The notes under the pieces: model-generated
Seen by the model: only the letters and a program-made list of their open reading frames with translations
Database searches by the model: none
Told to the model about the DNA's origin: nothing
NCBI GenBank assembly: GCA_958296385.1
Contig: OY282494.1
Location: forward strand, 1,533,416-1,597,415
Length of the DNA stretch: 64,000 bases
From: an uncultured Dehalococcoidia bacterium
Lineage (GTDB): Bacteria > Chloroflexota > Dehalococcoidia > Lucifugimonadales > UBA3495
Direction of reading: 5' to 3'
Shown: piece after piece, positions 3,660 through 61,231 of the stretch
Layout: every line of letters begins with the position of its first letter
How positions within the stretch are numbered: the first letter of the stretch is position 1
Made by a program: the position numbers and the translations under genes

Positions 3660-4125
3660 GGGTTTGGTCAAGTCATGATGGGTCATCCTCTGGGAGTGGG
3701 TTTTTCGGTTGGCTGGTATCGGGCGTTTATCGGGCGGTGGGTTTGGTTGGTTTGTGTCGGAGATTCAAGTCGTTGTCAGCCCTACGGCCGGAGGTTGGTA
3801 CGCAACTATTTTGTACCTTCATTTTACGTGGCCTATCCCTAATGAGAGGACAGCACGCGGGCTGAAGCTCGATACCCTGCGGAGGCAGCCCACGCCGTGA
3901 AAGCGGGGATGGGACTACCCTTGCCGATTGCGATTTTGCTGACTGGCCGTTTTTGACTTGAATCTCCGGCGGTTGTGCTAGCGGTGTGATGGCCCCGGTT
4001 CCTCAGGGGTGTTCTCGAGCGAGGACGGCTGAGGGGGGATTGGTTGGTTGATTTGCCCGATAGATGTATCTTACACGAACTGATGTACGGTTGCAAGGGG
4101 TTGGGGTCGTTGATTTTTGGGATTT
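3660..4125 (+). ncRNA. Structured repeat element, copy 1 (candidate mobile non-coding RNA)
   Basis: An approximately 465-bp intergenic element also found at 54040-54475 (+) and 57600-58055 (-). A perfect 14-bp inverted repeat, CGGAGATTCAAGTC at 3758-3771 and GACTTGAATCTCCG at 3955-3968, closes a 211-nt core. The core contains GCGGGCTGAAGCTCGATACCC and GCCGTGAAAGCG, both conserved in all copies. Downstream a hairpin pairs 4001-4006 with 4029-4034 and, inside it, 4011-4016 with 4021-4026. Short reading frames across it do not match between copies, so it is not coding. The family is unknown to me; HEARO/omega-RNA is possible. A palindrome (4150-4172) and a decayed CATTCTGAGCGC-type tail (about 4200-4250) follow. 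Confidence 0.6.
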
Positions 4126-4149
4126 GACGGTGAGGCGTGGGGGCTTCCG

Positions 4150-23623: not shown

Positions 23624-24493
23624 ATGACTACCAAACCCGCAGCGCAACCCCATACGGCCGGCGTAAGCCATCGCCTGACTTACCTGCCGGACCCGCCCCG
23701 GTACATTGACGCTATGCCGCGGGCGCCGCACATCCATCGAACTTATATGGTGCTGGAACACCACTTCCGCTTCCAGCCCGACGTTCTGGTTGGGTCTGGC
23801 GGCTACCTCTGCTACGACGCCCGAAACGTCAGCCGTTCGCCCTACCCCGATTGCATGGTTGCTTTCGGCCTAGCGGTGCCGCCGGGCGAAATCGTGGAGG
23901 CCAACGGCTATACCATCAGCGAAGTCGGCAAGCCGCCCGAATTTGTGCTGGAAGTGGCATCAAGCAGCATGGGCCCGCAGGATTACATCGTCAAGCGGAA
24001 AATCTACGCCAGCTATGGGGTGCAGGAATACTGGCGCTTTGACTACACCGGCGGGCGCTACCACGCTACGGCCCTGGCCGGCGACCGGCTGGTCAACGGG
24101 CAAAATGGGGAAAATGGGCAATACGAGCCAATCCCGATGGCCACCGAAACCGACGGCATCCTACGGGGTTACAGCGCAATGCTGGATTTGGAACTGCGCA
24201 TACGCAACGGAGAACTGCGTTTCTGGGATCCCAAAACGGGCGAATATCTGCTCAACTTGACGGAAGTCAAAGACCAGATTACGAAAATGGAAGCCCAGAT
24301 TATGGAGATCAAAGCCCAGACTGAATTAATCAATGCTCAACGCGATACGGCGGCGGCTCAGCGCGATGCGGCCGCCACCGAGCGTGATGCGATGGCGGCC
24401 GCGCGCGATACGGTCTATGCCAATCGCGATGCGGCCCTGGAGCGCATACGGCAACTGGAGGCGGAATTGCGCCGCCGGCAGTCGGAAAGCTAA
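23624..24493 (+). CDS. Uma2 family protein with C-terminal coiled coil, copy 1
   Basis: 289 residues. The Uma2/DUF820 core spans about 40-195: SPYPDCMVAFGLAVPPGE, PPEFVLEVASSSMG and GVQEYWRFDYTGG, the last matching 'GVREYWLVDP' of the family. After residue 205 comes a long Gln/Ala/Arg/Asp coiled coil (IMEIKAQTELINAQ, then QRDTAAAQRDAAATERDAM). Such tails probably make multimers. The leader TAATCCCCAACACCGTCG is repeated in front of the next gene, so the duplication includes the 5' region. It is a different subgroup from the Uma2 pair at 0.8-2.3 kb, which lacks the tail. Confidence 0.86.
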   Translation: MTTKPAAQPHTAGVSHRLTYLPDPPRYIDAMPRAPHIHRTYMVLEHHFRFQPDVLVGSGGYLCYDARNVSRSPYPDCMVAFGLAVPPGEIVEANGYTISEVGKPPEFVLEVASSSMGPQDYIVKRKIYASYGVQEYWRFDYTGGRYHATALAGDRLVNGQNGENGQYEPIPMATETDGILRGYSAMLDLELRIRNGELRFWDPKTGEYLLNLTEVKDQITKMEAQIMEIKAQTELINAQRDTAAAQRDAAATERDAMAAARDTVYANRDAALERIRQLEAELRRRQSES

Positions 24494-24541
24494 TCCCCAA
24501 CACCGTCGTCGCCGCGCAACCGCCTATCAGCGAGGCCCGCT

Positions 24542-25456
24542 ATGACTACCAAACCCGCAGCGCAACCCCAGCCGGCCGGCGTAAGCCATCGCCTGACTTA
24601 CCTGCCGGACCCGCCCAAATCTCCCGACGCTATGCAACAAGCCCCGTACATCTCACTAAATCATATGGTGCTGGCAGACCATTTCCTCTCCCAGCCCGAC
24701 GTTCTGGTTGGCGTCAACGGCTACCTTTGCTATGACGCCCGCGACATCCGACGCGCGCCCGTCCCCGACTTGCTGGTTGCTTTTGGCGTGGCGGTGCCGC
24801 CGGCGGAAATTGTGGACGCCAACGGCTATACCATCAGCGAAATCGGCAAGCCGCCGGATTTCGTGCTGGAAGTAGCCTCAAGCAGCACCGGCTGGCGGGA
24901 TTACACCGTCAAGCGGGACATCTACGCCGGCTACGGGGTGCAGGAATACTGGCGCTTTGACCACACCGGCGGGCGTTACCACGATACGGCCCTGGCTGGA
25001 GACCGGCTGGTCGACGGGGCATACGAGCCAATTCCGGTTACCACCGGAACCGACGGCATCATCCGGGGCTACAGCGCTGTTCTGGATTTAGAGCTGCACT
25101 CATACTACGGAGAACTGCGCCTCTGGGACCCCAAAATGGGCGACTACCTGCCCGACTTGACGGAAACCAAAGCCCAGCGCGATGCGAACGCTGTCCAGAG
25201 TGCTGCAAACGCTGCTCAGCGCGACGAAGCCTATGCTCAGCGGGACGTGAACGCTGCTCAGCGCGATGACGCCTATGCTCAGCGGGACGTGAACGCTGCT
25301 CAGCGCGATGACGCTTATGCTCAGCGTGATAGCGCCATCACTCAACGCGACGAAGCCGTTGCTGAGCGTGATGCGATGGCTGCCGTGCACGATGCGGACC
25401 TGGCGCGCATACGGCAGCTGGAGGCGGAGTTGCGCCGCCGGGAGTTGGAGGGTTAG
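24542..25456 (+). CDS. Uma2 family protein with repeat-expanded coiled coil, copy 2
   Basis: 304 residues, a tandem paralogue of the previous gene starting with the same MTTKPAAQPQPAGVSHRL-type N-terminus. The nuclease-fold core has APVPDLLVAFGVAVPP, PPDFVLEVASSSTG and GVQEYWRFDHTGG. The coiled-coil tail is longer than in copy 1 because of a 42-bp tandem duplication giving two extra AYAQRDVNAAQRDD units of 14 residues, exactly two heptads. The expansion keeps the heptad phase, which argues that the coil matters. Confidence 0.86.
   Translation: MTTKPAAQPQPAGVSHRLTYLPDPPKSPDAMQQAPYISLNHMVLADHFLSQPDVLVGVNGYLCYDARDIRRAPVPDLLVAFGVAVPPAEIVDANGYTISEIGKPPDFVLEVASSSTGWRDYTVKRDIYAGYGVQEYWRFDHTGGRYHDTALAGDRLVDGAYEPIPVTTGTDGIIRGYSAVLDLELHSYYGELRLWDPKMGDYLPDLTETKAQRDANAVQSAANAAQRDEAYAQRDVNAAQRDDAYAQRDVNAAQRDDAYAQRDSAITQRDEAVAERDAMAAVHDADLARIRQLEAELRRRELEG
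25229..25326 (+). repeat. 42-bp tandem repeat encoding two heptads
   Basis: Two exact or near-exact 42-bp units (25229-25270 and 25271-25312) and a partial third lie inside the Uma2 coiled-coil tail. The unit encodes AYAQRDVNAAQRDD. The length is a multiple of both the codon and the heptad. Confidence 0.85.
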
Positions 25457-49979: not shown

Positions 49980-50085
49980 AATGTCATTCTGAGCGCAACG
50001 AAGAATCTCGACGGCGTAGCAACGGCGTTGCCCCCAAAGTGTGCGCTACCTCATCGAGATTCTTCGCTGCGCTCAGAATGACATT
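49980..50085. repeat. 106-bp palindromic repeat, right flank of corrinoid gene
   Basis: 32-bp arms with a short mismatch (GCAACG against CTGCGC) at 49980-50011 and 50054-50085 around a 42-bp interior. The interior is inverted relative to the repeat at 48698-48799. Each repeat is followed by an ACATTGGGGG motif on its right. Confidence 0.9.
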
Positions 50086-50089
50086 GGGG

Positions 50090-50133
50090 GTGGGGACGGA
50101 ATCACATTGTGCGGGTGGGGACGGAATGACATT
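50090..50133 (+). repeat. 19-bp direct repeat upstream of MFS gene
   Basis: GTGGGGACGGAATCACATT (50090-50108) and a copy with one change (50115-50133) lie 28-71 bp before the MFS start. They continue from the right arm of the palindromic repeat. They may be operators or repeat debris. Confidence 0.6.
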
Positions 50134-54039: not shown

Positions 54040-54475
54040 GTGGATTCTCCGGTTGGGGTTGGTATCGGGCGGGTGTTTATCGGGCGGTTGGTTTGGTTGG
54101 TTTGGTGTCGGAGATTCAAGTCGTTGTCAGCCCTACGGCCGGAGGTTGGTACGCAACTATTTTGGACCTTCATTTTACGTGTCCTGTCCCTAATGGGAGG
54201 ACAGCACGCGGGCTGAAGCTCGATACCCAGCGGAGGCAGCCCGCGCCGTGAAAGCGGGGTCGGGACTACCCTTGCCGATTGCGATTTTGCTGACTGGCCG
54301 TTTTGACTTGAATCTCCGACGATGGCGCTAGCGGTGTGATGGCCCCGGTTCCTCAGGGGATGTTCTCGAGCGAGGACGGCTGAGGGGGGATTGGTTGTTG
54401 ATTTGCCCGATAGATGTAATCCTACACGAACGAATGTACGATTGCAAGTAATTGGTGTCGCTGATTTTTGGATTG
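54040..54475 (+). ncRNA. Structured repeat element, copy 2 (candidate mobile non-coding RNA)
   Basis: Same element as at 3660-4125. The closing inverted repeat is CGGAGATTCAAGTC at 54109-54122 with GACTTGAATCTCCG at 54305-54318, enclosing 210 nt. The downstream hairpin pairs 54351-54356 with 54380-54385. Core blocks GCTGAAGCTCGATACCC and GCCGTGAAAGCG are conserved. By eye it is about 90 percent identical to copy 1 in the core and less in the flanks. It sits between pyrF and sfsA, which are transcribed divergently away from it. Confidence 0.6.
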
Positions 54476-54545
54476 GGCCGGGGCTTTTGCGGGGTTGCCA
54501 CTGCGGAACCGGGCGGGATAGGATGGGGGGGTATTAGAGGCCGGG

Positions 54546-56038: not shown

Positions 56039-56120
56039 CCCCGCGTGTGCGGGGGAATCCGGATAGCGTCCCCGACAGGACCACGAGCGGACGGTCTATC
56101 CCCGCGTGTGCGGGGGAATC
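56031..56120 (+). CRISPR. Minimal type I-E-like CRISPR unit: two repeats, one spacer
   Basis: Two 29-bp repeats (56031-56059 and 56092-56120) around a 32-bp spacer (56060-56091), exactly type I-E geometry. The shared part CCCCGCGTGTGCGGGGGAAT is the classic I-E palindrome CCCCGCGTGTGCGGGG. The repeats differ at two positions near the 5' end (CGGTTTAA against CGGTCTAT), each one change from the common CGGTTTAT. The first repeat overlaps the stop codon of the endonuclease III-like gene. No cas gene and no leader are in the window, so it is a remnant or solo unit. Confidence 0.8.
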
Positions 56121-57390: not shown

Positions 57391-57512
57391 CTTGGCAGCC
57401 TCGCAAGGGGATTTGGACGGATGATTGAATCCGGGGACAATTTAGCCGCAAGGCAGCGGAAATGTCAAATCAGATAGCCTAATCAGCCCCGGCCGGACAT
57501 CCCGCCATCCCT

Positions 57513-57575
57513 GATGTCATTCTGAGCGCAGCGAAAAATCGCGAGGCCGCAGCAGCGACGTTGACCTCCAAACGA
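57513..57575. repeat. Half copy of the CATTCTGAGCGC palindromic repeat
   Basis: TGTCATTCTGAGCGCAGCGA is followed by AAAATCGCGAGG, matching the left arm of the repeats at 48698 and 49980 with later drift. It adjoins structured repeat copy 3. A more decayed version of the same tail adjoins copy 1 at about 4200-4250. The right arm is absent. Confidence 0.65.
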
Positions 57576-57599
57576 TACGCCGCCCCCGTCAAAATCCCC

Positions 57600-58055
57600 C
57601 GCCAAACCCCAAAAATCAGTGACACCACCTACTTGCAGGCCGTACTTTCGTTCGCCATAATACATCCATCGGGCAAATCAAGCAACCCTCGCTCCCTACC
57701 CGCTCATCCGGAGAACGGCCATGGGGAGATGGGGCCAGCACACCGCTAGCACAACCGCCGGAGATTCAAGTCAATACGGCCAGTCAGCAAAATCGCAATC
57801 GGCCAGGCCGACCCATCGACGCTTTCACGGCGTGGGCGGTACTCCGCAGGGTATCGAGCTTCAGCCCGCGTGCTGTCCTAACCGGCAGGCCACGTAAAAT
57901 GAAGGTCCGTAATAGTTGCGTACCCACCTCCGGCCGTAGGGCTGACAACGACTTGAATCTCCGACAACCAGCATCAAACCAAACCGAACCCACCGCCCGA
58001 TAAACGCCCGATACCAGCCAACCGCAAGGTGACCGATTATGACTTGACCAAGCCA
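57600..58055 (-). ncRNA. Structured repeat element, copy 3 (inverted)
   Basis: The same element on the minus strand. The closing inverted repeat lies at 57950-57963 and 57759-57772, enclosing 205 nt. GCTGAAGCTCGATACCC and GCCGTGAAAGCG are conserved. The downstream hairpin has CTCCC with GGGAG and inner CGTTC with GAGCG, instead of CCTCAG/CTGAGG and GTTCTC/GAGGAC in copies 1 and 2: pairing kept, sequence changed. The 5' end also matches copy 1 from GGTTTGGTCAAGTCAT (here GGCTTGGTCAAGTCAT). It is the most diverged copy and lies 50 bp from plsY. Confidence 0.6.
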
Positions 58056-60395: not shown

Positions 60396-60712
60396 ATACT
60401 GCCGTCGGTGGGGGGAGATTGGGGTTGCGGGGCGTTGTTGCGTTGCTGCACCAATTGGAGCAAGGTTTTCAGCATGGCCTGTTGGATGGCATCCGATCGC
60501 TGGCGTTCTTCTGCTAGTTGTTGTTCGGCTCGCCGGCGTTGTTCATCAAACCGTTTGCGTTCTTCGGCTATCTGCTGTTCAGCCCGCTGGCGTTGTTCAT
60601 CGGCCCACCGGCGTTCTGCGTCAGCACGTTCGCGTTCCTCGTCGGCCCGCTGGCGTTCTGCGGCTGCTCGTAGTTCGGCCTGTTGGCGGGCTTCGCGTTC
60701 TTTATTCAGCAT
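60392..60712 (-). CDS. Coiled-coil protein, downstream truncated duplicate
   Basis: 106 residues, almost all a Glu/Arg/Gln/Ala coiled coil (MLNKEREARQQAELRAAAE, ERQRADEERERADAE and so on), ending with LLQLVQQRNN and a short tail. It is closely similar to the C-terminal half of the 168-residue gene just upstream, from MLNKEREARQQAE onward, but lacks that gene's membrane segment. It overlaps der by 4 bp. The function is unknown. Confidence 0.65.
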   Translation of the reverse strand: MLNKEREARQQAELRAAAERQRADEERERADAERRWADEQRQRAEQQIAEERKRFDEQRRRAEQQLAEERQRSDAIQQAMLKTLLQLVQQRNNAPQPQSPPTDGSI

Positions 60713-60724
60713 AGTGATAAGAGG

Positions 60725-61231
60725 TTAGGGCTGCTGGCCGGTCGAGCTACCGCCGTTGCTTTGCTGGCCCAACCGGCCCAAGGCCTCAAGCACAGCCTGG
60801 TGGACCGCAGCCAATTGTTGGCGTTCTGCGGCTACTCGCTCATCGGCCCGTTGGCGCTCTGCGGCTACTCGCTCATCGGCCCGCTGGCGTTCTGCGTCGG
60901 CCCGTTCGCGTTCCTCGTCGGCCCGCTGGCGTTCTACATCGGCTCGCCTTTCGGCTTGTTGGCGGGCTTCGCGTTCTTTGTTTAGCATATAGGTATTGTA
61001 ACCTCCTTTGAGCGCGCCTACGGCCAGGCCGGCGCCGCCGGCTTTGGTGATTATCTCCAGGTTGACGAAGCTGGCCAGGACGCTGGGGTTGCAACAGCAG
61101 GCGCTGGCTTGGGACATTATGCACGGTGTTTTGGTGAAGTACCAGACTGTCCAGACGACTGCTGCGGTGAACAGGCCGAGGAGCAGTGGGCCGCGCCAGG
61201 TGGCTATGGCATCTTTGTAGCGTTCAATCAC
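60725..61231 (-). CDS. Membrane-anchored coiled-coil protein
   Basis: 168 residues from a GTG at 61231. A transmembrane segment (GPLLLGLFTAAVVWTVWYF, 14-32) is followed by ASACCCNPS, a CCC cluster, and a short second hydrophobic stretch near 60-75. The C-terminal 90 residues are a coiled coil with an 11-residue repeat (RADERVAAERQ), encoded by a 33-bp tandem repeat near 60835-60900. Its tail is duplicated as the next gene. Together they precede der on the same strand. Confidence 0.7.
   Translation of the reverse strand: MIERYKDAIATWRGPLLLGLFTAAVVWTVWYFTKTPCIMSQASACCCNPSVLASFVNLEIITKAGGAGLAVGALKGGYNTYMLNKEREARQQAERRADVERQRADEERERADAERQRADERVAAERQRADERVAAERQQLAAVHQAVLEALGRLGQQSNGGSSTGQQP

Follow-up and report, generated by a model that had tools for sequence, protein, structure and literature searches.

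The repeat that holds the hairpin studied here is an undescribed multi-copy structured RNA of sponge-associated Dehalococcoidia, with a parent form that includes a HEPN gene. The hairpin is a lineage-specific, fast-evolving side arm in the upstream part of this RNA, and compensatory change keeps it paired. We consider it probable that the family represents an RNA+HEPN module and that its RNA-only derivatives were spread by a MITE, the hairpin being a compensated side arm of that module. According to this explanation, each unit would begin with a promoter, followed by a structured RNA of about 350 nt that has a pseudoknotted core, and then by a ribosome-binding site and a start codon. The sequences show that the gene for a HEPN-fold protein follows the RNA on the same strand in parent copies and that in most host copies this gene is gone, with a start-X-stop remnant left behind; the MITE would disperse the RNA-only copies.

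The DNA analyzed, referred to here as the window, is a 64,000-nt stretch (G000:C1:1533416-1597415) of a single-contig genome of 3.3 Mb. Three copies of the repeat lie in the window, the number on which the first-pass annotation had relied, but the genome contains 72, split 39 to 33 between the two strands. Of the 72 copies, 51 have an unchanged 23-nt core word, 19 share a single A-to-T change in it and 2 differ at one other base; two or three mismatches in this word occur in none. Whole elements are approximately 80–85% alike. Analysis by cmscan of the elements from this genome and from seven relatives gave no Rfam family above the gathering cut-off, including the abiF motif, and assignment to a known Rfam family was rejected on this basis. 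The exact core pattern had no match in viral contigs, and a phage origin was likewise rejected. Same-genus matches came from Dehalococcoidia/Chloroflexota MAGs, several of them sponge-derived according to their isolate names among the matches listed.

Table 1. Features of the repeat family and positions in the window.
Feature	Position	Strand	Remarks
Copy 1	3710..4130	-	
Copy 2	54057..54489	-	upstream of pyrF
Copy 3	57590-58050	+	holds the studied hairpin
Sigma70-like promoter TTGCAG-N17-CATAAT	57633..57661	+	pattern recurs in family
P1, 5' strand ATCGGGC	57668..57674	+	pairs with GCCCGAT at 57995-58001 or 58006-58012
Variable hairpin	57686..57735	+	in 70 of 72 copies; 52 versions; z -7.1 on arm swapping
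P2, 5' strand GGAGATTCAAGTC	57760..57772	+	
Pseudoknot helix a, 5' strand ACGGCC	57776..57781	+	mostly invariant
Pseudoknot helix b, 5' strand GTCAGC	57783..57788	+	
Helix a, 3' strand GGCCGT	57932..57937	+	
Helix b, 3' strand GCTGAC	57941..57946	+	
P2, 3' strand GACTTGAATCTCC	57950..57962	+	arm-swap over 47 representatives
P1, 3' strand, two tandem GCCCGAT	57995..58012	+	
Shine-Dalgarno-like AAGGTG and ATG ACT TGA (Met-Thr-stop)	58026..58047	+	Shine-Dalgarno and ATG in 64/72 copies
MITE family, ends GGCAGCGTTCCGTTTYAGGTGGTTT, target duplications of 9 bp	loci L333-L343		

The variable hairpin has three parts and lies between stems P1 and P2. Its versions are of several kinds, such as CCTCAGCCGTCCTCGCTCGAGAACATCCCCTGAGG, CCCCAGCCGTTCCCGGCCAGGAACGTCCCCTGGGG and CGCTCTCCGGAGAGCG inside CAG/CTG. 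When arms were exchanged among the 52 versions, the duplex formed by a version's own arms averaged -23.5 kcal/mol compared to -20.5 kcal/mol for swapped arms, and the own-arm energy was better than that of all 20,000 of 20,000 arm permutations. The earlier statement, drawn from three copies, that pairing is kept while the bases differ holds over a much larger set of copies, and it holds far more strongly in P2 between species. The complementary segments then cited are present in all three copies of the window, but the sequences quoted were those of the minus strand of copy 3. On the plus strand of copy 3, CTCCC (57692-57696) pairs with GGGAG (57724-57728) and CGCTC (57701-57705) with GAACG (57713-57717), the upper stem of this allele folding in a slightly different register; in copies 1 and 2 the equivalent strand carries CCTCAG/CTGAGG and GTCCTC/GAGAAC. 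The upper-stem pairs first proposed, GTTCTC/GAGGAC and CGTTC/GAGCG, each contain one G-U as quoted, which becomes a C-A mismatch on the promoter strand. Reading the pairing as conserved RNA structure was correct, but the hairpin is a side arm specific to this lineage, and the other species examined showed no such hairpin at this place between P1 and P2. Two of the 72 copies, L072 and L314, have lost it.

The constant part of the RNA is a domain of approximately 210 nt closed by P2. The two strands of P2 differ wholly between species yet remain complementary, being GACCAGGTTCCGAGCG/CGCTCGGAACCTGGTC in G010 and GACCGGGTTTCAGG/CCTGAAACCCGGTC in G006, as compared to the pair given for this genome in Table 1. 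Arm-swap analysis between species gave -27.6 kcal/mol for own arms and -16.0 kcal/mol for swapped arms (z -13.1). Within this genome P2 exhibits an A-U to C-G change, and in G010 P1 is replaced by GCAGGCGAT/ATCGCCTGC. Helices a and b are found inside P2 in crossing order, forming a pseudoknot. Helix a hardly varies, apart from a single double change to ACGGTC/GACCGT in L268. Helix b occurs as GTCAGC/GCTGAC 99 times and in the compensated form ATCAGC/GCTGAT 28 times, with a mismatched end pair in 14 copies. A second crossing core pair changes from GCAG/CTGC to GCTG/CAGC (A-T in 53 copies, T-A in 17), and another core pair also varies inside the genome (C-G in 57, T-A in 12). Taken between species, the sequences argue strongly for a paired structure.

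The first-pass annotation had also looked to covariation above the phylogenetic background, and this was not borne out by the copies of this genome. Simulations along a tree of these copies supplied the null for the aligned core; the alignment of the variable hairpin was too poor for this test. No canonical pair fell below E = 0.05; the best, the A-T/T-A pair described above, had an E of about 0.8, and the single pair below 0.05 was non-canonical. The copies look mosaic, so tree-based tests are blurred. Under this strict null, covariation within this genome alone is only suggestive. RNAalifold, applied automatically to 50 aligned copies, failed to tell the strands apart and aligned the variable hairpin wrongly.

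The arm-swap result for the reverse strand was also significant (z -6.4), so the strand is not decided by pairing alone. Information on the strand comes from the expression signals. Over the 72 copies the promoter follows the pattern TTGCAA/TTGCCA-N17(18,19)-TAAGAT/CATAAT, and the relative G006 has a consensus-grade promoter, TTGACA-N17-TATACT. The Shine-Dalgarno sequence and ATG are present in 64 of the 72 copies, and in relatives an open gene begins at or downstream of this site on the same strand. The promoter, the Shine-Dalgarno-ATG and, in parent copies, the gene all lie on the strand that is plus at 57590-58050; the sequences quoted earlier belong to the opposite strand. Wobble pairs were also counted. 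The unfiltered count was tilted to A-C (97 vs 45), a tilt that follows base composition, and for this reason the comparison was restricted to wobbles lying between Watson-Crick pairs; on the plus strand these gave a G-U:A-C ratio of 15:10, compared to 63:157 in shuffles. Hairpins that arose as DNA palindromes, by mutation or strand-switching and without RNA structure, would account for folding on both strands, for the reverse-strand result and for the mosaic alleles. They would not account for the agreement of promoter, Shine-Dalgarno and gene on one strand, for the excess of G-U over A-C, or for crossing helices with compensatory change, which form no simple palindrome, and we regard this origin as highly improbable. 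As part of the explanation we favor, the repeat would be a self-contained transcription unit on the plus strand.

In 11 of the 13 congeneric genomes whose upstream DNA was inspected, the RNA precedes a co-oriented protein gene; in G001 the RNA upstream of the gene is only partly preserved. The protein behind the RNA in relatives is 190–270 amino acids in length, and a homologue was present in 14 of the 14 genomes of the genus. AlphaFold models of three sequences contain a confident helical domain at residues 1–124, for which the best PDB matches are all HEPN proteins (2hsb, Z 16.4, rmsd 2.9 over 122 residues); HEPN toxins occur among the matches. On these models the N-terminal domain is a HEPN fold. 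Model confidence is low for the C-terminal part (DPHG...CxCH). An alignment of 15 sequences revealed invariant residues that include R36-x3-H40, and the canonical HEPN RNase motif Rx4-6H was not found conserved in this alignment. Scans with Pfam and PADLOC yielded only PF05168 HEPN at an E of 0.03, below the cut-off, along with unrelated weak matches, and no Abi_2/AbiD/F protein. Outside the genus, only short HEPN-like (PaREP1-like) proteins were matched, in 10 of 400 genomes of the phylum. These proteins of other Chloroflexota have a weak HEPN-domain relation (E 1e-5 to 1e-10), and those examined lacked the C-terminal DPHG...CxCH part and had no such RNA upstream. The host genome itself contains two 136-amino-acid HEPN-only genes, each behind an RNA copy, and 70 RNA-only copies.

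The AbiF ncRNA acts both in cis and in trans to bind and neutralize a HEPN-type toxin, and RNA+HEPN modules have been proposed as the ancestry of Cas13 (PMC12373285). The present family resembles AbiF and the abiF RNA motif (RF03085) in having an ncRNA just upstream of a co-oriented HEPN protein gene, and resembles the type III toxin-antitoxin systems (ToxIN, CptIN, TenpIN) in having a pseudoknotted RNA upstream of a protein gene. It differs from the latter in that the protein has a HEPN fold and is not of the ToxN family, and in showing no tandem repeats of the RNA in the loci examined. It differs from AbiF in giving no match to the Abi_2 or abiF models, in its one pseudoknotted RNA of about 350 nt as opposed to 36-nt repeats, and in the RNA-only copies dispersed over one chromosome. 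By analogy, the HEPN protein may bind the RNA and be held in check by it, and toxin control of the AbiF/type III kind is the leading candidate for the function; the comparison with AbiF rests on PMC12373285. The RNA-only copies could persist through action of the RNA in trans or as passengers of the MITE.

A rival explanation holds that the family is an RNA antitoxin-toxin module, in which the RNA would neutralize a HEPN RNase toxin and the RNA-only copies would be antitoxins orphaned as the toxin gene spread and decayed. The order promoter-RNA-HEPN gene, as in AbiF (PMC12373285), the fold with its toxin matches, and the RNA pseudoknot are consistent with such a module. The missing Abi_2, PADLOC, abiF and Rx4-6H matches argue against it, as does the lack of tandem RNA repeats before the gene (one RNA per locus in the loci examined), and the two HEPN-only genes alone do not account for 72 RNAs. 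We view this explanation as possible but somewhat unlikely.

The coding remnant of the RNA-only copies was examined in the host genome. In 49 of the 72 copies one or two codons separate the ATG from a stop. The last codons of these start-stop ORFs are ACT, CAA, ATA, AAA, CGA, AGA, CAG and AAC, and all three stops are used; ACT TGA is common to 32 copies, and many of the ORFs are related by descent. Thirteen copies (L006, L009, L014, L022 and others) specify a short peptide containing R-A/S/T-P-P; ribosome arrest peptides are known to carry this motif. In most host copies start-X-stop is what remains after gene loss. We think it unlikely that the family is instead a new class of ribonucleoprotein element, in which an autonomous promoter-RNA-HEPN unit has many RNA-only derivatives whose folded RNA and two- or three-codon ORF are kept because ribosome binding is part of their action or spread. 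The position of the RNA 5' of the gene, with the Shine-Dalgarno at its 3' end, together with the presence of MITE ends, would also suit a leader that acts in cis to control how the HEPN gene is translated, the RNA-only copies being neutral, recently spread MITE debris. Debris should decay, yet the core word has no more than one mismatch in any of the 72 copies while similarity over whole elements is only about 80–85%, compensatory changes occur in RNA-only copies, and the Shine-Dalgarno-ATG is retained at the frequency given above; this reading is rather doubtful.

The sequence 3' of the start-stop ORF in 41 of the 72 copies is the terminal repeat of a MITE. Allowing up to 3 mismatches, this MITE end is found at 88 places in the genome, frequently in inverted pairs about 180–280 bp long that are free of the RNA and have clear ends with 9-bp duplications, for example GGACAAAGT and GCACGGCGA. 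Among the RNA copies, 41 have the right terminal repeat and only 3 of the 72 have both ends, so the idea that the right repeat proves transposon ends in every copy was rejected. Only one copy, L051, combines both MITE ends with an exact target duplication next to them, GATGACATC. MITE carriage of the RNA-only copies, with inverted terminal repeats and duplications of 9 bp, is shown for one copy and indicated for many, and it would explain their dispersal. The MITE-ended locus L345 retains the flanks of the RNA element and lacks the RNA core, an internal deletion. A dispersed ATTCTGAGCGCAGCGAAGAATC repeat at 50045-50093 and 57505-57553 of the window is part of the MITE body.

Genomic position was analyzed in a set of 50 copies with a perfect 21-mer; the 22 further copies hold an inserted A. 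All 50 copies tested are intergenic. The left neighbor is transcribed away from the element in 41 of these, and the right-hand neighbor is co-oriented in just 29, on which ground a simple 5' leader of neighboring host genes was rejected. The neighbors are mostly different in this genome and G006, with few shared genes, about the overlap estimated for chance. A site beside plsY is occupied in both, where the genes on its far side differ, and is empty in ten other genomes. That the RNA-only copies are host-domesticated regulators, acting in trans or close to promoters, would fit their intergenic location and the orientation of the left neighbors. Tolerated insertion upstream of genes would also give such an orientation bias, and the differing neighbors and empty sites speak against domestication, which we judge quite unlikely.

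Bacterial MITEs and dispersed hairpin repeats of the Correia, RUP or BOX type are short, intergenic elements with hairpins, terminal inverted repeats and target duplications. The present family resembles such repeats in its short, dispersed, intergenic copies and its hairpins and, for some copies, in terminal inverted repeats and target duplications; it is unlike them in having its own promoter, a conserved pseudoknotted RNA, a start codon and a traceable protein-coding parent. The work adds an undescribed family of large pseudoknotted RNAs, present at roughly 10–100 copies per genome in uncultured sponge symbionts. Its copies constitute a natural library of compensatory variants for structure solution, and a test case of an RNA+HEPN module turning into a dispersed RNA-only repeat.

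Other features of the window were also observed. Two copies of CCCCGCGTGTGCGGGGGAATC, resembling a type I-E CRISPR repeat, start 61 nt apart at 56039-56120 and adjoin the end of an ORF. A repetitive coding region at 60437-60990 contains two adjacent coiled-coil-like ORFs. Two pairs of adjacent ORFs, at 787-2277 and 23624-25456, have near-identical N-termini and are likely tandem duplications.
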